Positions 49,237 to 64,000 of a stretch of 64,000 nucleotides of DNA are shown piece after piece (the stretch's first letter is position 1; every line of letters starts with the position of its first letter). The DNA is from Pseudoalteromonas shioyasakiensis (GTDB taxonomy: Bacteria; Pseudomonadota; Gammaproteobacteria; Enterobacterales; Alteromonadaceae): assembly GCF_001550135.1 (NCBI RefSeq), contig NZ_LRUE01000024.1:124001-188000 (forward strand), read 5' to 3'. The notes beneath the pieces were generated by a model. That model searched no databases, was not told the DNA's origin, and saw only the letters and a program-made list of their open reading frames with translations. The translations under genes were made by a program, and so were the position numbers.

Positions 49237-50208
49237 ATGGCACTTTATGTAAATACAAATGTTAGTTCATTAAACGCTCAAAGACAATTAATGAATTCTG
49301 GTAACTCACTTGATACATCATTCAAGCGTTTATCATCAGGTCTTCGTATCAACAGCGCAGCTGACGATGCGGCTGGTCTACAAATTTCTGACCGTTTAAC
49401 ATCGCAAATCAACGGTCTTAATCAAGGTAACCGTAACGCGAATGACGGTATCTCTTTAGCGCAAACAGCTGAAGGTTCACTAGACGAAGTAACATCAATG
49501 TTCCAACGTATTCGTACTCTTGCACAACAAGCTGCGAATGGTTCAAACACAGATGAAGACCGCTTAGCGATTCAAGAAGAGATTCGTTCATTATCAGCAG
49601 AGGTTAACCGTGTAGCTGAAGATACAACATTCGGTGGCCAAAACCTTCTTGATGGTTCATACGATGCTAAATTCCAAGTTGGCGCAGATGCTATCCAAAC
49701 GATTGGTTTCAGTATGAAGGATGTAGGCGCAACGACGAATGGTGCTAATGGTATGTCTGCAAACGGTGGCTTTACTATGTCAGGTATTGCTCAAGTTGCA
49801 ACTGCTGTAACAGGTAAGGCGATGTCTAGCCTTGCTGCCGGTATTAGTGGTGTCGATTCTGGTTTAGCACAAGCAAGTGTTGGCTTCTCAAGCTTCGGTG
49901 CAACGACTATCAGTGTGTCTTCACAAGGTAACGCTCAACTTATCATGGCAGGTATGGACTCTCTAATCGCTGTTGTTGATAAAAAGCGTGCGGAGTTAGG
50001 TGCGGTTCAAAATCGTTTCCAATCAACGATTCGTAACCAATCGAATATCTCTGAAAACTTAAGTGCAGCGAAATCACGTATTAAAGACACCGACTTTGCT
50101 CAAGAAACAGCTAACTTAACTAAGATGCAAATCTTACAACAAGCTAGCCAAACAATTTTGAGTCAAGCTAACCAACGCCCTCAAGCGGCACTAAGTTTAT
50201 TAGGTTAA
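49237..50208 (+). CDS. Flagellin 1
   Basis: 323 aa. Conserved D0/D1 ends: [17 protein letters not shown] with [20 protein letters not shown] at the N terminus, and SRIKDTDFAQETANLTK with [14 protein letters not shown] at the C terminus. The variable middle is short, so D2/D3 are largely missing, as in many polar flagellins. A 260-bp stretch (49651-49910) is identical to flagellin 3. Filament subunit; likely glycosylated by the Maf system downstream. Confidence 0.95.
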   Translation: MALYVNTNVSSLNAQRQLMNSGNSLDTSFKRLSSGLRINSAADDAAGLQISDRLTSQINGLNQGNRNANDGISLAQTAEGSLDEVTSMFQRIRTLAQQAANGSNTDEDRLAIQEEIRSLSAEVNRVAEDTTFGGQNLLDGSYDAKFQVGADAIQTIGFSMKDVGATTNGANGMSANGGFTMSGIAQVATAVTGKAMSSLAAGISGVDSGLAQASVGFSSFGATTISVSSQGNAQLIMAGMDSLIAVVDKKRAELGAVQNRFQSTIRNQSNISENLSAAKSRIKDTDFAQETANLTKMQILQQASQTILSQANQRPQAALSLLG

Positions 50209-50636: not shown

Positions 50637-51611
50637 ATGGCTTTATATGTAAATACTAATGTTAGTGCATTAAACGCACAAAGGCAGCTAGATAGAACAG
50701 GTACAGATTTAGATACTTCGTTTAAACGCCTTTCATCAGGCTTGCGTATCAACAGTGCAGCAGATGATGCGGCTGGTTTACAAATATCTGACCGTCTACA
50801 ATCACAAATTTTGGGTTTGAATCAAGGTAACCGAAATGCGAATGATGGTATTTCACTTGCGCAAACAGCTGAAGGTGCGTTAGATGAAATTACTTCAACA
50901 TTCCAACGAATTCGTACTCTTTCTCAGCAAGCTGCAAATGGTTCAAACACCGATGAAGATAGACTCGCAATTCAAGAAGAGATCCGTCAATTATCAGATG
51001 AGGTTAACCGTATTGCAGCTGATACCACATTTGGCGGTCAAAACTTACTCGATGGTAGTTATGAAGCTAGCTTTCAAGTAGGTGCTGATGCTGTTCAAAC
51101 AATTGGCTTTAGTATGAAAAGTGTGGGTGCGACTACGAATGGTCAGGTTTCTATGACGAATAATGGTGGTTTTACCATGTCAGGAATTGCAGCAATCGCT
51201 TCTGCCGTTGGTGGTAAAGGAATGTCTTCGCTTGCGGCTGGTATAAGTAGTGTTTCGTCAGCGCTAACAGAAGCAACGGTTAGTTTCAGCAGTATTACTG
51301 CTGGTGATATCAGTGTTTCAAGCCAAGTGAATGCTCAGCAAGTATTTGCTGCAATGGATGCAATGATCGCTGTAGTAGATAAAAAGCGTGCTGAATTGGG
51401 TGCTGTGCAAAACCGTTTTCAATCAACAATTCGTAACCAAGCGAACATATCAGAAAACTTATCTGCAGCAAAATCACGTATCAAAGATGCTGATTTCGCA
51501 GCTGAAACGGCTAATTTAACTAAAAACCAAATTTTACAGCAAGCAAGCCAAACAATTTTAGGTCAAGCAAATCAACGACCTCAAGCGGCGTTAAGCTTGT
51601 TACAAGGTTAA
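50637..51611 (+). CDS. Flagellin 2
   Basis: 324 aa. Same D0/D1 ends as flagellin 1 ([37 protein letters not shown]) but a different middle (residues about 160-225, with [11 protein letters not shown] and [16 protein letters not shown]). It does not share the identical block of flagellins 1 and 3. Ends in QG instead of G. Has its own leader with hairpins. Confidence 0.95.
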
Positions 51612-51773: not shown

Positions 51774-52745
51774 ATGGCTTTATATGTAAACACTAATGTG
51801 AGTTCTTTGAACGCACAGCGCCAGCTAATGAAATCTGGTAACTCATTAGATACTTCTTTCCAACGCCTTTCATCAGGCTTACGCATTAACAGCGCAAAAG
51901 ACGATGCTGCAGGTATGCAGATTGCTAACCGTCTTACAAGCCAAGTTAATGGTTTAACGCAAGGTAACCGAAATGCGAACGATGGTATCTCTTTAGCGCA
52001 AACAGCTGAGGGGGCACTAGACGAAGTAACATCAATGTTCCAACGTATTCGTACGCTTGCACAACAAGCGTCGAATGGTTCGAATACTGATGAAGACCGT
52101 TTAGCACTTCAAGAAGAAATTCGCTCTCTTTCTGAAGAAGTGAATCGTGTCGCCGAAGATACTACTTTCGGTGGTCAAAACCTACTAGATGGTTCATACG
52201 ATGCTAAATTCCAAGTTGGCGCAGATGCTATCCAAACGATTGGTTTCAGTATGAAGGATGTAGGCGCAACGACGAATGGTGCTAATGGTATGTCTGCAAA
52301 CGGTGGCTTTACTATGTCAGGTATTGCTCAAGTTGCAACTGCTGTAACAGGTAAGGCGATGTCTAGCCTTGCTGCCGGTATTAGTGGTGTCGATTCTGGT
52401 TTAGCACAAGCAAGTGTTGGCTTCTCAAGCTTCGGTGCAACGACTATTAGCGTTTCAACACAAGGTAATGCACAACTCATTATGGCTGGAATGGATTCTC
52501 TAATCGCTGTTGTTGATAAAAAGCGTGCGGAGTTAGGTGCGGTCCAAAATCGATTCCAATCAACAATCCGTAACCAATCTAATATCTCTGAAAACTTAAG
52601 TGCTGCGAAATCACGTATCCAAGATACAGACTTTGCGACTGAAACAGCTAACTTAACCAAGATGCAAATCTTACAACAAGCTAGCCAATCAATCTTAAGC
52701 CAAGCAAATCAACGCCCTCAAGTAGCACTTTCACTACTAGGCTAA
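51774..52745 (+). CDS. Flagellin 3
   Basis: 323 aa. Conserved flagellin ends; differs from flagellin 1 at several N-terminal residues (SAKDDAAGMQIANRL) and at many silent sites, yet 52188-52447 is base-for-base the same as 49651-49910. Filament subunit. GCGGAGG precedes the ATG. Confidence 0.95.
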   Translation: MALYVNTNVSSLNAQRQLMKSGNSLDTSFQRLSSGLRINSAKDDAAGMQIANRLTSQVNGLTQGNRNANDGISLAQTAEGALDEVTSMFQRIRTLAQQASNGSNTDEDRLALQEEIRSLSEEVNRVAEDTTFGGQNLLDGSYDAKFQVGADAIQTIGFSMKDVGATTNGANGMSANGGFTMSGIAQVATAVTGKAMSSLAAGISGVDSGLAQASVGFSSFGATTISVSTQGNAQLIMAGMDSLIAVVDKKRAELGAVQNRFQSTIRNQSNISENLSAAKSRIQDTDFATETANLTKMQILQQASQSILSQANQRPQVALSLLG

Positions 52746-54724: not shown

Positions 54725-55153
54725 ATGTACAACGCAAAAGTAAAAAATTACCAAAAGGAAGCACTTAAAACTCGCCTTGCAGGTGCTGACCGCTACGAAA
54801 TTATTCAAATGTTGATGGCAGGCGCTGTTGAGAAGATGGTACTTGCAAAAGTAGCCATCGAAAAAAAACACCTTGAAGCCAAGAGTGAACACCTATCAAA
54901 AGCATCAGCGATAATTGAAGCACTTAGAGGGTGTTTAGATTTTGATGCTGGTGGTGAAGTAACTGAAAACCTTTATGCATTGTATTCGTACATGATTGAT
55001 AGATTGTTAGATGCAAGTATCAAGAATGATCCAACCATTATTGACGAAGTAAGTGGCTTACTAAAAGAAATTAAGTCTGCATGGGACGCAATTCCTCATG
55101 AAGTAAGAGAACAAACTTTAAGAGATAATGGCGCTGACGCAAATGTCGGATAG
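54725..55153 (+). CDS. fliS: Flagellin export chaperone FliS
   Basis: 142 aa, helical. Family motif YNAKVKNYQKEALKTRLAGADRYEIIQMLMAGAVEKM in parts, and EALRGCLDFDAGGEVTENLYALYSYM in parts. Binds the flagellin C terminus before export. Overlaps the next small gene. Confidence 0.94.
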   Translation: MYNAKVKNYQKEALKTRLAGADRYEIIQMLMAGAVEKMVLAKVAIEKKHLEAKSEHLSKASAIIEALRGCLDFDAGGEVTENLYALYSYMIDRLLDASIKNDPTIIDEVSGLLKEIKSAWDAIPHEVREQTLRDNGADANVG

Positions 55154-55442
55154 TCAATTTTCCCAACTTGAAAATCAAATTGAGATACTTAACGCTCATT
55201 TAGACAAAAACAACCTTGATGCCTTCAACGCAAGCTTTATAGAGTTTGACCAAAAAGTAAGGTCACTATTTGGTAATATCAATAACTTATCACCTGAAAA
55301 TGTTAGGCGTTGTGAAGAAATTTTTAGTAAATTTGGCGCGTTGCTGCAACGCGCTGAAGGTCAAAAAAAGAATTTAGCAAAGCAAATAGGTGTTCATTTA
55401 AGTAATCAAAAAAAGCTTAACATATATAAAAGCATCAAGTAG
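55128..55442 (+). CDS. Small helical protein, FliT-like
   Basis: Up to 104 aa; the start is ATG 55128 or ATG 55143, both inside fliS. Wholly helical, with a coiled-coil-prone region and a basic C terminus. In polar flagellates a short FliT/FlaI-type gene occupies this place after fliD/fliS, so a chaperone role for FliD is likely. Sequence recognition alone is weak. Confidence 0.6.
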   Translation: MALTQMSDSQFSQLENQIEILNAHLDKNNLDAFNASFIEFDQKVRSLFGNINNLSPENVRRCEEIFSKFGALLQRAEGQKKNLAKQIGVHLSNQKKLNIYKSIK

Positions 55443-55452
55443 GTAAAGAATA

Positions 55453-57537
55453 ATGACAACACAAAAATCTGTTGAAGCTCAATTAGAATCACTTTCAGAG
55501 CAGCTTGAAGCGAAGTTAGAAAAACAGCAGAAAGAACAAATATTTGCAGAAAAAGCTAATCTAATGTTTGAGCGTAACCTATTGGCATTCAAACAGTTTT
55601 TTCCTGAAATTTACGATAGGTTTTTACACTATAATCCAGGCGAAAAATTTCAGCTACTCCTCAATGAAAATGGCACCGCTAATATAATAGATTATGAAAC
55701 CGGGGTGCCAATGTACTCGGAAGATCCAATAAGTCAGGCAAAAGAACAGGCTGAAAAAAATATAAATGCCCCAATTCTTGGGCGTACAGACCATTCAAAA
55801 GTTTCATTAATTGAAAATCCCCTTGATTTTTGCCATATCAAATTAATGAAAAATATGGGCTCGGTTTATTTGGAAGCAAAACAAGAACTCGAATTAAACA
55901 ATACGCTTGATGAAGTTATGCCTAGCTTGATTGTCTTTGGCATAGGTTTGGGATATCACTTACCGTACCTGCTTGATAGTAAGAAAATTAGCTTTATAAA
56001 TATTTTGGAGCCAAACGAAGACTATTTTTTTGCAAGTCTATTCGTTACTGATTGGCAGGAAATTTTAGAACATGTCAATCAAAGTGGTAGTTATCTTTAT
56101 TTAGGCATTGGCAAAACAGAAGTCGAAATTTTTCAAGATATTTATGAGCGCTCAAGAAATGTTGGTGTTGCATCAGTTAGTTTTACTTGGTTCTATCAGC
56201 ACTACCCATCTGTAACTGTTAATAACTGGATTAATCAATTTAAAGTTAATTTTCATCAATTTTTTACAGGTTTTGGCTTTTTTGATGATGCACTTATGGG
56301 AGTTGCCCACACATTGGGTAATGTCGATAATGGCCTCAACCTTATGGTTAATCATTTAAGTCAAGTTAGCGTCCCAAAATATGATAATTTTCCAATTGTT
56401 ATAATTGCTAATGGCCCATCTTTAGATAAAGAAATTGAAGCTCTTCAAAGTATTAAAGATAAAGTCGTTATCTTTTCATGTAATTCAGCTTCTACAGCGT
56501 TGATCCAATATGGAATTATTCCCGACTTTCATGTTGCATTAGAGCGTACAGAACAGACATATCATTTTCTCAAGGATTACCTCCCAGAATCTGCTCGAAG
56601 CAAGATTAACTTTTTGACAACTAATGTGATGCATCCTAGCGTATCAAGTCTTTTCCCTTGGACTGGCTTTGGATTAAAAGGTAATGAGTCTGCTACGCAA
56701 TTAATTCAATTATCACAGGTATTAGGCAAGCATGAATTTACGGGAAGTCTTTCATATTGTAACCCGCTAGTTGGCAACACAGCACTTAGTTTTGCATGTC
56801 ATTTGAATTTCAAAAATATTTATTTATTTGGTGTTGATAATGGTTATATAGATGAAACCCATCACCACTCTAAATCAAGTTTTTACTACAATGACAAAGG
56901 CGAAACAGTCCATCAACCTTTAAAGATGGGTAAGCAAATAGTACTGCCTGGAAACTTTGCACCTTCTGTTTTAACTGATGAATTTATGAGTGTTGGTAAC
57001 AGCCAAATGGAGAAACTCGTCGATTTATTTGTGCCAAAAGGTACACATTTCTTTAATTGTAGTAATGGTGCAAAAATTAAAGGGGCAATACCTTTAAAGT
57101 CAGAGGATATTTTCCTAGAGAATACTCAAATTGATAAACATGAGGTTATTGAATTTATCAAATCCACTAAATTCTCAGCTCCATATGATGCAGAGAAAGT
57201 TGAGTCATATTTGCAATACAATGAATTTGAAGAGTTTTGTTCTACGTTTGCAAATATACTAAAAGAAGATGTAAGCACTCGAGGTGATGCGTTAGATGCA
57301 TTACTTAAAAGTATTCGCTATCTCTATTCATTTAAAGATAATGCAAAATATTTAAATATTTTTCTAATGATGGAAGGGGAAACCTTATACACGACAGCTC
57401 TTTTGATATCTCTGTTGTACAACTTTGGGGATGAAGAGCAAATAATGCCTTACTATTTAAAAGCACTCCAGCATTGGATTGAGTTTATTGATTCGGCACC
57501 TGAGTACTACAAAGCTAATATTCGCTTGTGCAAGTAA
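55453..57537 (+). CDS. Motility-associated glycosyltransferase Maf
   Basis: 694 aa. Central DUF115/MAF_flag10 domain with PIVIIANGPSLDKEIEAL, VIFSCNSASTALIQYGI and PDFHVALERTEQTY in parts (about 310-370), and FGVDNGYIDETHHH near 460. Maf proteins attach nonulosonic acids to Ser/Thr of flagellin. It starts 10 bases after the FliT-like gene and leads the glycan synthesis genes, which ties the sugar to the flagellum. Confidence 0.88.
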   Translation: MTTQKSVEAQLESLSEQLEAKLEKQQKEQIFAEKANLMFERNLLAFKQFFPEIYDRFLHYNPGEKFQLLLNENGTANIIDYETGVPMYSEDPISQAKEQAEKNINAPILGRTDHSKVSLIENPLDFCHIKLMKNMGSVYLEAKQELELNNTLDEVMPSLIVFGIGLGYHLPYLLDSKKISFINILEPNEDYFFASLFVTDWQEILEHVNQSGSYLYLGIGKTEVEIFQDIYERSRNVGVASVSFTWFYQHYPSVTVNNWINQFKVNFHQFFTGFGFFDDALMGVAHTLGNVDNGLNLMVNHLSQVSVPKYDNFPIVIIANGPSLDKEIEALQSIKDKVVIFSCNSASTALIQYGIIPDFHVALERTEQTYHFLKDYLPESARSKINFLTTNVMHPSVSSLFPWTGFGLKGNESATQLIQLSQVLGKHEFTGSLSYCNPLVGNTALSFACHLNFKNIYLFGVDNGYIDETHHHSKSSFYYNDKGETVHQPLKMGKQIVLPGNFAPSVLTDEFMSVGNSQMEKLVDLFVPKGTHFFNCSNGAKIKGAIPLKSEDIFLENTQIDKHEVIEFIKSTKFSAPYDAEKVESYLQYNEFEEFCSTFANILKEDVSTRGDALDALLKSIRYLYSFKDNAKYLNIFLMMEGETLYTTALLISLLYNFGDEEQIMPYYLKALQHWIEFIDSAPEYYKANIRLCK

Positions 57538-57591
57538 AGTCATTTAAACGAGTAGTTGCGAATTCTTTTTTCACTTTTAGCGGATTTATTA

Positions 57592-58911
57592 ATGAATAAT
57601 AAAAAATTAGAAAAAAGCTTATCTTTACAAAAAAAAGCAAAGTCAATCATCCCTGGCTTAACCCAATTGCTTTCTAAGCGACCAGATATGTTTAGTACCA
57701 ATATTTGGCCTGGGTATTTTTCTAAATCAAAGGGATGCCAAGTTTGGGATCTTGATGGTAATGAGTACCTCGATATGTCTATTTCGGGTATCGGTGCAAA
57801 TATTCTAGGTTATGCGGTAGATGAAGTTGATGATGCGGTTATTAACTCTATTCGCAATGGGGTTAGTTCTAGCTTAAATTGCCCTGAGGATGTTGAGCTT
57901 GCTGAGAAGTTATTAGAATTACACCCTTGGTCTGAAGAAGTTAGATATGCCCGTTGTGGCGGTGAAGCAATGACTGTCGCAGTGCGTATTGCACGAGCAG
58001 CAACAGGTAAAGATAAAATTGCTTTTAGTGGTTATCATGGGTGGCATGATTGGTACTTATCTGCCAATGTTACAAGTAATAGTAATCTTAACGACCATTT
58101 AATTCCTGGCCTTTCACCTAAAGGTGTTCCAAAAGCGCTAGCAGGAACAGCACTCCCTTTTCCTTTTAATGATATCGAAGCGCTAGAGCAGTTAGTTGCA
58201 GAAAATGGTGATGAGCTTGCTGCTATCGTGATGGAGCCAATGAGAAATTTTGCCCCATCTGAAGAATACTGGCAGCAAGTTGAGGCGATTGCAGCACGAT
58301 TAAATATCCCATTAATTATTGATGAAATATCTATGGGCTTTAGGATCAACTGTGGCGGATCGCATTTGAAGCTGGGTATTAATCCTGATATTGCAGTTTT
58401 TTCTAAGGCAATGGCTAATGGCTATGCTATGGCTGCCGTAATAGGCAAGTCTAAATGGATGGATGCAGCACAAACTAGTTTTATATCTAGCACTATGTGG
58501 ACTGAACGAGTAGGGCCTACTGCTGCATTAGCAACGATTAACTATTACGAGCAACACCAAGTCCATGAGCATCTAGCTGTAATCGGTGCAAAAATTAAGG
58601 ATGGCTGGCTAAGTTTAGCGCAAAAGCATGGCCTTGAAATTCATGTTTCTGGTATTGATGCCCTTTGCCACTTTAGTTTAAAGAATGAAAACTTTTTGAC
58701 GCTTAAATCCTACTTTATTGAGAAAATGTTAGAGCAAGGTGTATTAGCAACTAATATGTTTTACTGCATGTATGCGCACAAAAAGCACCACGTTGAGACT
58801 TATTTAAAAGCGGTTGATAATGCGTTTTCTGCCATAGCCGATGCGATTGAAAACCCAGAGTTACTGGCACATGTTATTCCATCAACCTCGGGCTTTAAAA
58901 GGCTGAATTAA
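57592..58911 (+). CDS. Class III (glutamate-semialdehyde-aminomutase-like) PLP aminotransferase
   Basis: About 439 aa from ATG 57592; a non-ATG-rich extension to 57556 is unlikely. Fold-type I: GCQVWDLDGNEYLDMSISG in parts, FSGYHGWHDWY, IIDEISMGFR and the PLP lysine in VFSKAMANGYAMAA (about residue 275). It resembles HemL but lies in a sugar locus, so it probably aminates a glycan precursor or an acyl-group precursor. It is not PseC, which is of the DegT family. Ends 1 base before the GNAT gene. Confidence 0.82.
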   Translation: MNNKKLEKSLSLQKKAKSIIPGLTQLLSKRPDMFSTNIWPGYFSKSKGCQVWDLDGNEYLDMSISGIGANILGYAVDEVDDAVINSIRNGVSSSLNCPEDVELAEKLLELHPWSEEVRYARCGGEAMTVAVRIARAATGKDKIAFSGYHGWHDWYLSANVTSNSNLNDHLIPGLSPKGVPKALAGTALPFPFNDIEALEQLVAENGDELAAIVMEPMRNFAPSEEYWQQVEAIAARLNIPLIIDEISMGFRINCGGSHLKLGINPDIAVFSKAMANGYAMAAVIGKSKWMDAAQTSFISSTMWTERVGPTAALATINYYEQHQVHEHLAVIGAKIKDGWLSLAQKHGLEIHVSGIDALCHFSLKNENFLTLKSYFIEKMLEQGVLATNMFYCMYAHKKHHVETYLKAVDNAFSAIADAIENPELLAHVIPSTSGFKRLN

Positions 58912-58912
58912 G

Positions 58913-59401
58913 ATGAACTTACTGACTTCAGATAGGTTTAAACTAAGATACTTAGAAGCAGCGGATGCATCGGCTAAGTATTTAAACTGGTTGAATTCAG
59001 GTGTTAGCGAATTCATCCTAAATAAACCAGAGTCTAGCAGTGGCCTTGTTGCATATATTGAAGAGCAGCTGGCCGATAAAGATGTGTATTTTTATGGCAT
59101 TTTTACTCTTGATAGTGATGAGCATATTGGAAATATTAAGTTTATCATCAAAGGAAAAAGCCGCGATTGTGTTGAAATGGGGATTCTGATTGGTGAAAAA
59201 GCGTGGCATGGCAAAGGGGTTGCAAAGGAAGTAATTGAATGTTTTGCACGCCATGCAAAGCAGCAATTAGGTATTACTAAAATGCAGCTTGGTGTTGACT
59301 CAGCTAATACTGCTGCCGTTTCGGCTTATTATAAAATAGGTTTTAAAGTTGTAGATGATGGTCGAAATGATGGCGGTCTAACAATGTTATGGGAGTTTTA
59401 A
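58913..59401 (+). CDS. GNAT-family N-acetyltransferase
   Basis: 162 aa. RimJ/RimL-like GNAT: LRYLEAADA at the start, the acetyl-CoA loop GEKAWHGKGVAKE near residues 95-108, and SAYYKIGFK. In Pse pathways PseH acetylates an amino sugar; this protein may do that or another acyl transfer. Very tight spacing on both sides shows one operon. Confidence 0.8.
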   Translation: MNLLTSDRFKLRYLEAADASAKYLNWLNSGVSEFILNKPESSSGLVAYIEEQLADKDVYFYGIFTLDSDEHIGNIKFIIKGKSRDCVEMGILIGEKAWHGKGVAKEVIECFARHAKQQLGITKMQLGVDSANTAAVSAYYKIGFKVVDDGRNDGGLTMLWEF

Positions 59402-59402
59402 G

Positions 59403-60173
59403 TTGTTGAATAATTATACTGAACAGCTTGTTTCAAAGCTTCTGAACAACGATTTTTATATTGTAATTCAAGCTAGAATGACGTCATCTCGTTTACCTCA
59501 AAAGGTAATGCTACCTCTTGGAACAAAGCCAGTATTAGAAGTGATGCTTGAAAGATTAGCTCCTTTTAAAGAGAAGATCATTATCGCGACAACAGATGAT
59601 GGCACTCAACGACCGATCACTGAGTTGTGTGAACGACTGGGTGTGAAATACGTTGAAGGTGACACTAACAATGTATTAAGTCGCTATTACCTAGCTGCAC
59701 AGTTTGTAAAGGCAAACTTAGATACTGTGATTGTTCGTTGTACCAGTGATTGTCCTCTCATTGATTTAACTGAAACCGCACGTGTTATAGACCACTTCTA
59801 TAGTGTGCGCAGTGAGTATGATTATATTTCGGCTGGCCCTCACTGTGGTTTTCCTAATGGTTTTGATACAGAAGTGTTTACTTTTGAGGCGCTTAAATCA
59901 GCCTTTGAATGTGCAACAGAAGATTTTGAAAAAGAACATATGACGCAATATATTTGCAGAAATATGAAAGTGGCTGACTATAAGAACGTTGATGATTTCA
60001 GTCATTGGCGTTTAACTTTAGATGAGCCAGCTGATTATGAGTTAATTAAAGCCATTTATAGCTTATTCGATTACCGTACTGATTTCACATTTGATGAATT
60101 AAAACAAATGCTAAGCTCTCATCCTGATATACTTAAGATCAATGAGCACGTAGAACAAGTTCAAGTTGGGTAA
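59403..60173 (+). CDS. SpsF-like cytidylyltransferase
   Basis: 256 aa. Start TTG at 59403 with GGAG 7 bases upstream; the preceding stop ends two bases before. Nucleotidyltransferase motif VIQARMTSSRLPQKVMLP (about 21-38), VRCTSDCPLID and DEPADYEL. Related to KdsB and NeuA; likely makes the CMP-activated nonulosonate for Maf, in the place of PseF. Confidence 0.8.
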   Translation: MLNNYTEQLVSKLLNNDFYIVIQARMTSSRLPQKVMLPLGTKPVLEVMLERLAPFKEKIIIATTDDGTQRPITELCERLGVKYVEGDTNNVLSRYYLAAQFVKANLDTVIVRCTSDCPLIDLTETARVIDHFYSVRSEYDYISAGPHCGFPNGFDTEVFTFEALKSAFECATEDFEKEHMTQYICRNMKVADYKNVDDFSHWRLTLDEPADYELIKAIYSLFDYRTDFTFDELKQMLSSHPDILKINEHVEQVQVG

Positions 60174-60174
60174 T

Positions 60175-61212
60175 ATGTTTAAGAAAGAATTTAAAATAGC
60201 TGATACATGGGTAGGGCACGATCACCCTTGTTATATCATCGCTGAAATGTCAGCTAACCATGGTCAATGTTTAAATAAAGCTAAAGAGTTAGTTCATGCC
60301 GCTCATGAAGCCGGTGCTGATGCGATTAAGCTACAAACTTACACCGCAGATACTTTAACCATGGATTGTAAACTTCCACACTTTGAAGCGACGGGTCCAT
60401 GGCAAGGTCAATACTTACATGATTTATACAAGACAGCTTATATGCCTTGGGATTTTCATGCGGAACTGTTTGAACTATCAGCAAAACTTGGACTTACTTG
60501 TTTTTCATCACCATTCGATAAATCGGCAGTCGATTTATTAGCACAATTAGATGCTCCAGCCTATAAAATTGCTTCACCGGAATTAATTGACCACCAATTA
60601 ATTCGTGATGTAGCGGCTACCGGTAAACCCGTTATTATGTCTACAGGTGGTGCGACGTTAGTTGAAATTGCTGAGGCGGTAAAAGTCGCTGAAGATGCGG
60701 GTGTTACTGAACTTGCATTGATGAAGTGTACAAGCACTTATCCCGCTCCTGCAGAGACTATTAATTTGCGAACTATCCCTCATATGCAACAGGCTTTTGA
60801 ATGTCCGGTTGGTTTATCTGATCACACACTGGGAAATGATGTGCCACTGGCTTCAGTTGCCGTCGGTGCATGCATGATAGAAAAGCACTTTGTATTAGAC
60901 AAAACAGACAATACTGCAGATAGCTTTTTTTCAATGACGCCATCGGAGCTTCAGGCCCTTGTTCATGGTGTGAGACAAATTGAAAAAGCACTGGGCAAAG
61001 TTGATTACCCATCCGTTGCTTCAAAAGCACGTCGCTGTGTTTACATTATCAAAGATATTAAAGCTGGAGAGCAGCTGAGCCCTGAGCATTTAAGACAAAT
61101 GCGTCCTGGGGGCGGCGAAATTATGCCAAAAGAGCTGCCAAGCCTTATTGGGCGAACAGTTAATAAAGAATTACGCTGTGGCACTCAATTGTCTTGGAGT
61201 GATCTAAAGTGA
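60175..61212 (+). CDS. pseI: Nonulosonic acid synthase PseI/NeuB-like
   Basis: 345 aa from ATG 60175, one base after the preceding stop. NeuB TIM barrel with IIAEMSANHGQ, DAIKLQTYTADT, CFSSPFDKSAVD, KIASPEL and GLSDHTLG, then a C-terminal SAF (antifreeze-like) domain with DIKAGEQLSPEHLRQMRPG in parts. It condenses a 6-deoxy amino hexose with PEP. The TADTLT and SDHTLG forms favour the Pse branch (PseI) over sialic acid, but substrate is inferred. Confidence 0.85.
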   Translation: MFKKEFKIADTWVGHDHPCYIIAEMSANHGQCLNKAKELVHAAHEAGADAIKLQTYTADTLTMDCKLPHFEATGPWQGQYLHDLYKTAYMPWDFHAELFELSAKLGLTCFSSPFDKSAVDLLAQLDAPAYKIASPELIDHQLIRDVAATGKPVIMSTGGATLVEIAEAVKVAEDAGVTELALMKCTSTYPAPAETINLRTIPHMQQAFECPVGLSDHTLGNDVPLASVAVGACMIEKHFVLDKTDNTADSFFSMTPSELQALVHGVRQIEKALGKVDYPSVASKARRCVYIIKDIKAGEQLSPEHLRQMRPGGGEIMPKELPSLIGRTVNKELRCGTQLSWSDLK

Positions 61213-61469
61213 GCGATATGAAACAAGACTTAATCCATTCGGTTCAGCAATTTTTATTAGAACGCGGCGTATTTGTTGAAGATGCTGACATTGCTGAATA
61301 TGACTTTGTAGCTGCAGGGGCGCTAGACTCATTTGAAATACTGAGCCTTATAATGAGCTTAGAAACCGAATATGGTATTGCTGTTCCTCCAGAGTTAATG
61401 GTAGACAGTGAAAATGCAAAAGTAGGAAATTTAGCGACTGCGTTAGTGAAGTTAAATGATAGCAATTAG
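61209..61469 (+). CDS. Acyl carrier protein
   Basis: 86 aa. GTG start at 61209 overlapping the pseI stop (GTGA), with GGAG at 61196-61199; ATG at 61218 is an alternative. Acidic four-helix type with the phosphopantetheine Ser in GALDSFEI (about residue 38). It overlaps the next gene by 14 bases. A dedicated carrier protein inside a nonulosonate operon suggests an activated acyl group is made and passed to the sugar. Confidence 0.85.
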   Translation: MSDMKQDLIHSVQQFLLERGVFVEDADIAEYDFVAAGALDSFEILSLIMSLETEYGIAVPPELMVDSENAKVGNLATALVKLNDSN

Positions 61470-63018
61470 AGTCGATACACTATGTGGCTTGGGCCACTTT
61501 ATGCGTTGCAAATGGCTCGCGTTAGAGTTGCAATGTTTAGGTGAAGAAGTTGTTTTTTTAGTCGATACACAATTGTCGGATCATTTAACTAAAGAACTCG
61601 GGAATATACATTTATTACCCTATGCAAAAACACAGATAGAAGATGCGGCTAACTGTGTTCAGCTTTTCAACGAGCAACAACTCATCATTGATAAATTACT
61701 TGTTGATAGCTATCGTTTTGATATTGAATGGGAATCAGAGATGGCTAAATATGTGCCATCGATTATTGCGGTCGATGATCTTGAAAGAGACCATTTAGCA
61801 GAGCTGGTTATCGATAGTAAATGGAATGCTGAAAAGACTTCGTCTCGTTATCAAAGTACAGCACTTGAATCACAAAACTTTTTACTTGGTCCTGATTTTT
61901 CGATGCTGTCTAGGGCTTATCGAAACTGCGAACAAACAGAGCGCTCAAATAAAGAGCTTATGTTCTCTCTCGGCGGTGGTGGCGATTGGAAACAGCTTAC
62001 TGAAATCATACGATTAATTCTTGAAACAGCGCCAGAGTATAAAGTTAATCTAATTATAGGCCCTAATGCTACATCCGTTACTCAGCTACATGAGTTAGCT
62101 TTAGGTAACTCGCAATTAAATTTAATTGAAGCACCTCGTTGTTTAGCCAAATACTATAAAAGCTGCACCTTGTTTGTTGGCGCTTTAGGCACGTCCTTGT
62201 ATGAGCTGGCCGCGACTAAAACCCCTGCGTTAACCTTCTCAATCGCAAAGAACCAAGAAAATCAACAAACTGCATTAGATGATCTGGGGCATTATTTCCA
62301 TATCGCAAACTTAATAGACTATCCGCCAGAAAAGGTTTTAAAGCTCATTTTAGCAATGCTACAAAATATAGAGCGCATCCACCTAATGCGTGAAAATGTT
62401 GCTGTAAAAATTGATGGCGAAGGTGCAAGTCGTGTTGCCAAGTTAATTACTTCAGAGCTAGCTTCTAGCCAGATTACTCAAGGCAATAGCAACTTAATTG
62501 AAAGCCAGCACCAGCATTTAACCGACACAATCACGTTAAGGCGAGTGGTTGATCAGGACATAAACCGCTATTTGGCAGCGAGAAACTTACCGAACAATGC
62601 TTGGCGAATGACGATCACAAAAGATATCGATCAACTTGATCATTATTGCTGGTGGTTTGCTAATCGTCGCGACTCTTATGTAATGGAAGTTAAAGGTAAG
62701 CCGTTACTTTACGTTTGGCATCAATTGTATGAAATAGAGCAGCAAAATTATTTAATTGGTGGTTGGTTTGCTGCAAGTGACGATGTTAATTTTGCTCATG
62801 CTCAACTAGTATTAGATTGGCAACTAAAAGAGACTGAGCAAACATACCCAGATGCAATGTGGGTAGCCGTTATTAATAAAGAAAATAAGTTTGTAAATTT
62901 GCTTAATCAGCGAGCAGGATTTAAATCTATTGCAGGGGATGCGAAAAAAATGGCAGTGACCCAACATTTATTTCCAAATGCTTCGATTGATGATTTTAAT
63001 TTTGTAGGAAAAGGGTGA
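61456..63018 (+). CDS. PseG-like UDP-sugar hydrolase fused to an acyltransferase-like domain
   Basis: 520 aa. The N-terminal half (about 1-335) is PseG-like: IRVDTLCGLGHFMRC at the start, and a GT-B type fold with FSLGGGGDW and GALGTSLYELAAT. PseG removes UDP from the 2,4-diacetamido sugar just before PseI. The C-terminal part (about 355-520) begins TLRRVVDQDINRYL and looks like a GNAT domain. Such a hydrolase-acyltransferase fusion, next to an ACP, suggests joined steps of acylation and UDP release. Confidence 0.78.
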   Translation: MIAIRVDTLCGLGHFMRCKWLALELQCLGEEVVFLVDTQLSDHLTKELGNIHLLPYAKTQIEDAANCVQLFNEQQLIIDKLLVDSYRFDIEWESEMAKYVPSIIAVDDLERDHLAELVIDSKWNAEKTSSRYQSTALESQNFLLGPDFSMLSRAYRNCEQTERSNKELMFSLGGGGDWKQLTEIIRLILETAPEYKVNLIIGPNATSVTQLHELALGNSQLNLIEAPRCLAKYYKSCTLFVGALGTSLYELAATKTPALTFSIAKNQENQQTALDDLGHYFHIANLIDYPPEKVLKLILAMLQNIERIHLMRENVAVKIDGEGASRVAKLITSELASSQITQGNSNLIESQHQHLTDTITLRRVVDQDINRYLAARNLPNNAWRMTITKDIDQLDHYCWWFANRRDSYVMEVKGKPLLYVWHQLYEIEQQNYLIGGWFAASDDVNFAHAQLVLDWQLKETEQTYPDAMWVAVINKENKFVNLLNQRAGFKSIAGDAKKMAVTQHLFPNASIDDFNFVGKG

Positions 63019-63022
63019 GTAG

Positions 63023-64000
63023 GTGGATAAAGGTATTTATGAGTTATTTGCTACGCATGTCGCTAACAACCCCACTAAGGTAGCTGTTGTTTTTCAACAG
63101 CAAAGCGTAACGTATGATGAATTAAATCAGCAAGTTATTAAGCTTACTAGCCATTTTTTAAAACAAGGTGTTACACAAGGCCAACGTGTCGCAATATTTG
63201 CACCTAACGGTATTGAATTTATTGTTTCATTGCTGGCAATCGCTAAATTAGGTTTAGCCGCAGTGCCGTTACCTGTTAGCTTAAAAGGGCTTGCTCTAAC
63301 CGTTGCTCTTAAGAAAACCCCCGTTGCTAAGGTGATTGCTTGGCCGACCATTAGCAAATCACTTCTTGCAGATAATCTTATTGAAGCTGAAAATTTAATA
63401 ACATTAGGCCAAAGTGTTGCTAATGAAACAAATTGGCTTTGTGTTCAACAAGCTGAAGCAGAATGCTTTTTTACTGATACAATTGATACGCAAGCACCTT
63501 ACATCTTAACCATGACTTCTGGTTCTACCGGTCAACCTAAGCCAATAGTGTTGAGCCAAGCATGTAAAGTAAATAGAGCATTTGATGCGACCATAAACTA
63601 CTACGGATTAACGCCCGATGACGTTATTCTCGTAGCGACTCCTATGTACCACTCGCTAGCTCAGCGTGGTGTGCTCATGCCGTTGATGCTTGGTGCAACA
63701 ACGGTTGTATTACCAAAGTTTAATTTGAAGCTATGGCTACAAGCAATTGAACAGCACCAAGTGAGTTTTCTATTTGCCGTTTCATCTCAATTAGTAAGCT
63801 TAATTCAAAACGGCGTTGAAGGGCATGATTTGAGCTCTTTACGCTGCCTAGTATCCTCTTCGGCGGTATTAGATAAAGAGAGTAAACAAAGCTTACTTTC
63901 TTTGCTTAGTTGCCGCTTACACGAGTGTTACGGAGCTTCAGAGGTTGGTGTTGTGACTGATTTCGCGGTATCAGAACACCCTGAATTGAGCGGCAGTGTA
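63023..64000 (+). CDS. AMP-forming acyl-CoA/acyl-ACP ligase (partial)
   Basis: 326 codons are open from GTG 63023 to the window end with no stop; the gene is cut off. It starts 4 bases after the preceding stop and has AGG just before. ANL superfamily: ELFATHVANNPTKVAV, RVAIFAPNGIEFIV, and the P-loop motif TMTSGSTGQPKPIV near residues 163-176. It adenylates a carboxylic acid and probably loads it on the adjacent ACP. Confidence 0.85.
   Translation, partial: MDKGIYELFATHVANNPTKVAVVFQQQSVTYDELNQQVIKLTSHFLKQGVTQGQRVAIFAPNGIEFIVSLLAIAKLGLAAVPLPVSLKGLALTVALKKTPVAKVIAWPTISKSLLADNLIEAENLITLGQSVANETNWLCVQQAEAECFFTDTIDTQAPYILTMTSGSTGQPKPIVLSQACKVNRAFDATINYYGLTPDDVILVATPMYHSLAQRGVLMPLMLGATTVVLPKFNLKLWLQAIEQHQVSFLFAVSSQLVSLIQNGVEGHDLSSLRCLVSSSAVLDKESKQSLLSLLSCRLHECYGASEVGVVTDFAVSEHPELSGSV

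Follow-up and report, generated by a model that had tools for sequence, protein, structure and literature searches.

The last part of a 64,000-nucleotide stretch of the Pseudoalteromonas shioyasakiensis genome (contig NZ_LRUE01000024.1, positions 124,001 to 188,000; hereafter the window) carries a flagellin glycosylation island, in which genes for the synthesis of pseudaminic acid (Pse) lie together with an acyl carrier protein (ACP), an AMP-forming acyl ligase and two acyltransferase domains of the GNAT family. Judged from sequence, the island is likely to encode a single Pse pathway, in which the N-acylation of the 4-amino group (N-7 of Pse) has been switched from acetyl-coenzyme A (acetyl-CoA) to a dedicated acyl-ACP. 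The genes from Maf to the ligase are as follows:

55453-57537, plus strand: Maf flagellin glycosyltransferase, predicted to transfer the sugar from the CMP-sugar to flagellin (PF20157, 197 bits; PF01973, 112 bits)
57556-58911, plus strand: class III (GSAM-like) aminotransferase (PF00202, 159.5 bits), the start codon of which probably lies 3' of the TTG, judging by shorter relatives
58913-59401, plus strand: GNAT1, a free PseH-like acetyltransferase with the canonical CoA loop HGKGVA (PF13302, 58.5 bits)
59403-60173, plus strand: PseF-like CMP-sugar cytidylyltransferase (CTP_transf_3, PF02348, 81.6 bits; cut-off 22.6)
60166-61212, plus strand: PseI, pseudaminic acid synthase (TIGR03586, 431.7 bits; cut-off 340.25)
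61209-61469, plus strand: dedicated ACP (PF00550, 23.2 bits; cut-off 20.8)
61456-62517, plus strand: PseG domain (UDP-sugar hydrolase), the N-terminal portion of a 520 aa fusion protein (TIGR03590, 164 bits; cut-off 153.55; residues 2-273 of the fusion)
62518-63018, plus strand: GNAT2, a PseH-like acyltransferase domain fused C-terminally to PseG (AlphaFold2 model and fold search)
63023-64528, plus strand, running past the window end at 64000: AMP-forming acyl ligase, the predicted ACP loader (PF00501, 236.2 bits; 501 aa in the full frame)

The genes that a sequence-only reading of the window had named all proved to be open reading frames where it had put them, with family matches. The frames of PseF and PseI, of PseI and ACP, and of ACP and PseG overlap, and four bases separate the PseG fusion from the ligase. 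PseB and PseC, sought beyond position 64000, were found there on the minus strand (68648-70881), and the equivalog models of PseB, PseC, PseG and PseI all score above cut-off in the island. The PseH equivalog model is not reached, GNAT1 scoring 22.3 bits against a cut-off of 93.1 and GNAT2 of the window giving no match. The whole genome holds one PseI, four PP-binding frames and one phosphopantetheinyl transferase match, and the Maf of the window is the sole MptE/Maf match in the genome search.

The contigs of named genomes were scanned with the GNAT2 domain, which gave 37 loci, eight of them from P. luteoviolacea; further cassette loci, 8 of 10 of them matching named ones, were kept out of the 37-locus counts. 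GNAT2 and PseG share one frame in 37/37 loci, and their partners are the ligase in 36, PseI in 35, a Gfo/Idh dehydrogenase in 34 and the ACP in 32 (by BLAST). The dehydrogenase, which lies outside the window and was missed by the sequence-only reading, tracks the acyl set. The loci missing ligase, PseI or Gfo/Idh (L054, L058 and L060) are on contigs of only 4.0-5.4 kb, and all 34 loci on long enough contigs carry the ligase, ACP, PseI and Gfo/Idh, two of the ACPs being weak; small PP-binding frames in L056 (Synechococcaceae) and L057 (Pelagibacteraceae) score 20.6 and 21.8 bits against the cut-off of 20.8. Because the ligases of the most distant members are just 18-24% identical to that of the window, the grouping persists through large sequence divergence. 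A chance neighbourhood was considered and rejected, as the same gene set recurs in related loci. The nearest named relatives of GNAT2 are in Pseudoalteromonas gelatinilytica (99%) and P. prydzensis (97%); within the family, 11 of 196 genomes, from 4 of 52 genera, have the fused domain, and a class-wide draw of 369 genomes gave two GNAT2 matches, one being the organism's own genome and the other a weak and partial match (E 6e-4) to a free PseH-like protein of the ordinary kind.

The controls were PseI loci of this family, 40 in all, chosen by hand in descending order of PseI rank from genomes that GNAT2 does not match; that they lack GNAT2 is therefore by construction. Gfo/Idh occurs in none of the 40 control loci, and BLAST for the window-like type of ACP found it in none, other ACPs being present in several. 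Ligases are present in 17 (BLAST) or 20 (profile) of the 40, of types differing from that of the window. Control L114, with PseH, a FabG-like SDR, ligase, LuxE and LuxC, represents the Aeromonas Group II type within this family, and L117 has PseH, ACP, ligase and SDR. The pse islands of the family include at least three further ligase/PseH types, distinguished by their ligase pocket motifs (L096, L108, L111, L114-L117, L120-L122, L124-L126, L130, L132 and others).

GNAT2 of the window has no Pfam or NCBIfam match of its own, and the NCBIfam PseH model matches weakly in 4 of its 11 relatives. Its AlphaFold2 model (mean pLDDT, the predicted local distance difference test score, 93.8) has a GNAT fold; VIA-align placed 3eo4 at the top (Z 17.7, root-mean-square deviation 2.2, 146 aligned), which GNAT2 also matches by profile (E 1.9e-5). 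The many other GNATs in the fold search include Helicobacter PseH (4ri1, Z 15.2) and FdhC (5ktc, Z 15.3), a 3-hydroxybutanoyl transferase. Since no second, unfused PseH-like frame was found in 29 of the 37 loci, GNAT2 must perform the PseH step there, and most simply it would be the PseH of the pathway.

In GNATs, the loop Q/RxxGxG/A holds the pyrophosphate of CoA. It is found in none of the fused domains, either by pattern (0/37) or by alignment with the window included (0/38, strict G-x-[GA]). Among the other PseH-like domains, the contiguous G-x-[GA] is kept in 25/25 without a ligase within 5 kb versus 7/21 with one (Fisher p 4.8e-7, kinship of rows uncorrected); L164 and L165, whose ligases lie farther off, were counted as being without. 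Because the CoA loop is absent from the fused GNAT and kept in PseH-like domains without a ligase, the donor for GNAT2 is probably acyl-ACP. In the tree, which used 13 of the 38 fused rows and in which long branches were flagged, the loop losses form three clades, namely the fused domains, a 12-row clade (support 100/99) and the pair L121 and L122 (100/100); seven rows of ligase loci that keep the loop make up a fourth. We read this pattern as PseH having switched its donor from CoA to ACP more than once. A simpler rule, loop loss in every PseH with a neighbouring ligase, was rejected, since on closer alignment the 7-row clade retains G-S-G.

The attachment serine of the ACP lies within GALDSFEIL, of which LDSF is invariant in 11 aligned sequences, and the protein has a predicted pI of 4.05. 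When the ligase is aligned to the gramicidin synthetase adenylation domain, it has Ser at the position equivalent to Asp235 (PheA numbering), which we take to be the amine-binding residue of alpha-amino acid adenylation domains, and Arg at position 239. The pocket motif of the window is HSLAQR, and HSL[AG][QE]R is present in 34/37 ligase rows, including the cyanobacterial one at 24% identity, the exceptions being three SAR11 rows (L057, L058 and L060). These pocket residues count against an alpha-amino acid and favour a polar one. The nearest solved relatives of the ligase did not yield the acid, and neither the fold nor the sequence identity of Gfo/Idh names a substrate, the nearest solved chain being 3v5n, 'Oxidoreductase'. 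In the standalone cases, ligase pocket motif and PseH clade match one to one (21/21): YS[FY]GLS belongs to the loop-lost clade of 12 rows, R[FY]AGLQ to the 7-row clade that keeps G-S-G, and DHIGG to L121/L122. An exception to this pairing is L060, in which a YSFGLS ligase lies beside the PseG fusion. The pairing suggests that these genes form cassettes.

One subtype of FkbM methyltransferase occurs in 24/37 cassette loci, 0/40 controls and 0/36 PseI loci from across the class (class loci), as counted with a profile built from loci of the cassette set itself; Pfam assigned ten of ten unlabelled frames to FkbM. Taken together, the ligase pocket and FkbM in 24/37 loci suggest that the acid at N-7 is polar and maybe O-methylated. 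Three Colwelliaceae islands (L017/L043, L044 and L047) have a DAHP synthase-family gene beside the FkbM methyltransferase; this gene, and an aldehyde dehydrogenase in L057, may point to a precursor that is a sugar acid or aromatic. Near the DAHP synthase-family gene, L017 also encodes a protein of 296 aa that no Pfam family matches. Our best guess, held loosely, is a hydroxylated and sometimes O-methylated acid.

In the proposed pathway, PseB and PseC would, from their family assignments, supply UDP-4-amino-4,6-dideoxy-L-AltNAc. The ligase would adenylate a free carboxylic acid and load it onto the neighbouring ACP, and GNAT2, which loop loss and linkage point to as the PseH equivalent, would transfer the acyl group from the ACP to the 4-amine. 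The fused PseG would then remove UDP, and PseI, PseF and Maf would carry out the remaining steps to CMP-Pse5Ac7Acyl and its attachment to flagellin. Gfo/Idh, by its linkage, probably helps to produce the acid, which would probably be polar and not an alpha-amino acid, and which might be O-methylated in many relatives. The central claim of the sequence-only reading, that a dedicated line of acid, ligase, ACP and acyltransferase feeds Pse, is supported by the conserved gene set, the single PseI and the loss of the CoA loop in the fused GNAT.

Several points weigh against this account. GNAT2 of the window lacks a match to the NCBIfam PseH model, with which further GNATs of this genome reach weak scores, none over the cut-off. 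The strict loop criterion was fixed after the alignment had been viewed, and under a looser, column-based count 11/21 domains beside a ligase keep the loop (p 8.7e-5). Moreover, of the 21 standalone PseH-like domains that have a ligase nearby, seven keep the loop, as G-S-G, so a neighbouring ligase does not force its loss. In 15/40 control and 15/36 class loci no PseH-like frame was obtained, and these were left out, while the loop losses amount to only about three clades. The FkbM profile misses the window's own FkbM-like gene. Finally, class locus L144, which is without the cassette, has a Gfo/Idh-like gene (26%), making 1/36 of the class-wide PseI loci.

An unlikely alternative assigns the PseH step to GNAT1 as the true acetyl-CoA-dependent enzyme, leaving GNAT2, ACP and ligase to acylate another position or a second substrate. 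GNAT1 does possess the CoA loop and scores better with a profile of unfused PseH-like proteins (E 4.5e-15 versus 1.6e-7 for GNAT2); however, it is missing from those 29 of 37 loci that have no other unfused PseH-like frame, and the fusion to PseG puts GNAT2 at the PseH step. The sequence-only reading had counted two acyltransferase domains in the acyl set; both are present, but the fused GNAT2 alone is the likely user of acyl-ACP, the free GNAT1 keeping its CoA loop.

That the loaded acid is a fatty acid, which would make the flagellin sugar lipid-like, is improbable. Among NCBIfam models, those of long-chain fatty-acid CoA ligases score best with the ligase, though none comes near its cut-off, and islands with ACP, FabG, ligase, LuxE and LuxC are read as carrying a 'liposugar' in the available text of two reports (PMC7874193; PMC4875605). 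Against this stand the invariant pocket Arg in 34/37 ligases and the absence of FabG, LuxE and LuxC from the scanned island proteins, unlike in control L114.

We give little credence to an amino acid or other amine-bearing acid made by the class III aminotransferase. The sequence-only reading had drawn this connection from the aminotransferase, which adjoins the acyl genes in the window, but the connection is not supported: the gene is present in just 9/37 loci of the acyl set and also in 8/40 controls without Gfo/Idh or the window-like ACP, and the ligase has Ser at the Asp235 equivalent. The aldo-keto reductase accompanies the aminotransferase in 17/17 cases, and of the nine cassette loci with an aminotransferase, eight also have GNAT1. 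Because the aminotransferase occurs with and without the cassette and always with the aldo-keto reductase, it is, as far as gene content tells, part of a second, independent and separable modification module together with the aldo-keto reductase and GNAT1. Its nearest solved chains are nearly tied, one being a C-6' aminotransferase acting on a sugar (7lm0) and the other a GSAM (6w80). Lastly, a degenerate, non-catalytic GNAT2 beside an ACP and ligase serving something unrelated to flagellin, to which the lost loop and the missing family match might point, is scarcely credible given ten residues invariant across 24 aligned domains, distant lineages included, and the linkage of ACP, ligase and PseI in 34/34 long loci.

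Returning to the Pse pathway fed by acyl-ACP, we tentatively extend it to a broader proposal, in which our confidence falls somewhat short of even. Pse acyl cassettes would be interchangeable, with ligase, ACP and the matching PseH variant travelling together and PseH repeatedly rebuilt from CoA to ACP use; the window's cassette with Gfo/Idh would then lead to a 7-N-acyl Pse not described before, and would do so in ocean bacteria without flagella as well.

Flagellin islands with an ACP and a ligase have been published (PMC7874193; PMC4875605), and in the accessible parts of these papers the Aeromonas Group II and enterobacterial islands resemble that of the window in that an ACP and an AMP-forming ligase adjoin the Pse genes. 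However, Group II islands are described there with FabG, LuxE and LuxC, whereas the window island has none among its scanned genes and has Gfo/Idh instead, and its PseH is fused to PseG; the ligase pocket motif of the Group II-type control L114 is also unlike that of the window. The Aeromonas Group I island likewise has an aldo-keto reductase following PseC, and its pse genes include a class III aminotransferase, but it is small, and no ACP, ligase or Gfo/Idh is described for it in the available text (PMC7874193). In Acinetobacter, psaGH in place of psaDE leads to Pse5Ac7(R)-3-hydroxybutanoyl (PMC9676051), so that exchanging the PseG/PseH pair likewise alters the 7-N-acyl group, although the module psaABCGHF, as listed in the accessible part of that paper, includes no ACP or ligase gene. 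In rhodobacterial sphingolipid synthesis, the dedicated acyl-ACP synthetase/ACP pair AasR/AcpR feeds serine palmitoyltransferase and, as in the window, a dedicated ligase and ACP supply an enzyme that normally uses acyl-CoA; according to the available text, the acceptor enzyme differs and the acids are long-chain fatty acids, making the likeness a functional analogy (PMC9386255). The flagellin of Shewanella oneidensis carries a Pse-like sugar (274 Da) that has one N-acetyl group and a C9H16O7 substituent, free of nitrogen and O-methylated; for this sugar the sfmABCDE operon uses a thiamine pyrophosphate enzyme, a FabG-like reductase, a methyltransferase and an ATP-grasp protein; unlike the window, this operon is presented in the accessible text without an ACP or AMP ligase (PMC3765264). 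The present cassette was not found in the open-access papers searched, and the available parts of PMC9290775 and PMC3283744 held nothing usable on it. The PseG::GNAT fusion as such was rejected as a novelty, because 7/36 class loci have loop-keeping fusions (L133, L143, L145, L150, L151, L160 and L164). What is new is the cassette with Gfo/Idh and the fusion, the loss of the CoA loop, and the occurrence in SAR11 and cyanobacterial genomes.

The remaining genes around the island are given below; those beyond the window were read in the organism's own locus, L002, the window coordinate being the L002 coordinate plus 61999.

49237-50208, 50637-51611 and 51774-52745, plus strand: three flagellin-like frames, probable acceptors (reading frames, mutual similarity)
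64567-65391, minus strand: FkbM-like methyltransferase (TIGR01444, 22.7 bits, below the cut-off of 37.7)
65483-66514 (L002 3484-4515), minus strand: radical SAM/SPASM protein, beside the FkbM-like gene
66567-67745, minus strand: Gfo/Idh dehydrogenase
67767-68651, minus strand: aldo-keto reductase (PF00248, 85.1 bits)
68648-69811, minus strand: PseC (TIGR03588, 558.8 bits; cut-off 423.5)
69820-70881, minus strand: PseB (TIGR03589, 553.6 bits; cut-off 407.75)
71000-71800: flagellin
71943-73382: FleQ

Between a FliS-like gene and Maf, a 104 aa frame (55128-55442) has no Pfam or NCBIfam match; short frames are similarly placed in related loci, and a FliT-like chaperone would be a guess for it. Adjoining the cassette of L038 (12044-14368) is a 774 aa protein with GT2 glycosyltransferase and radical SAM domains. 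Among the distant loci, the Synechococcaceae metagenome-assembled genome L056 (6264-11579) holds consecutive Gfo/Idh, ACP-like frame, ligase, PseG::GNAT2 and PseI, situated between ArgJ and other genes. The Pelagibacteraceae (SAR11) loci L057 (8717-17445), L058 and L060 have PseG::GNAT2 with PseI and/or ligase, and L057 additionally has Gfo/Idh, an aminotransferase (47% identity), a radical SAM protein and, beside the ligase, the aldehyde dehydrogenase. If the SAR11 bearers of the cassette lack flagella, this would imply a use in surface glycans other than on flagellin.

Flagellin islands with an ACP and a ligase have been known for years, explained only by a suggested 'liposugar'. A rule that combines the loss of the PseH CoA loop beside a ligase and ACP with matched pockets would make the type of donor, and perhaps the acyl class, readable from sequence, and it would supply enzymes for unusual nonulosonic acids. 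It also raises the question of why SAR11 and cyanobacterial genomes hold the set.

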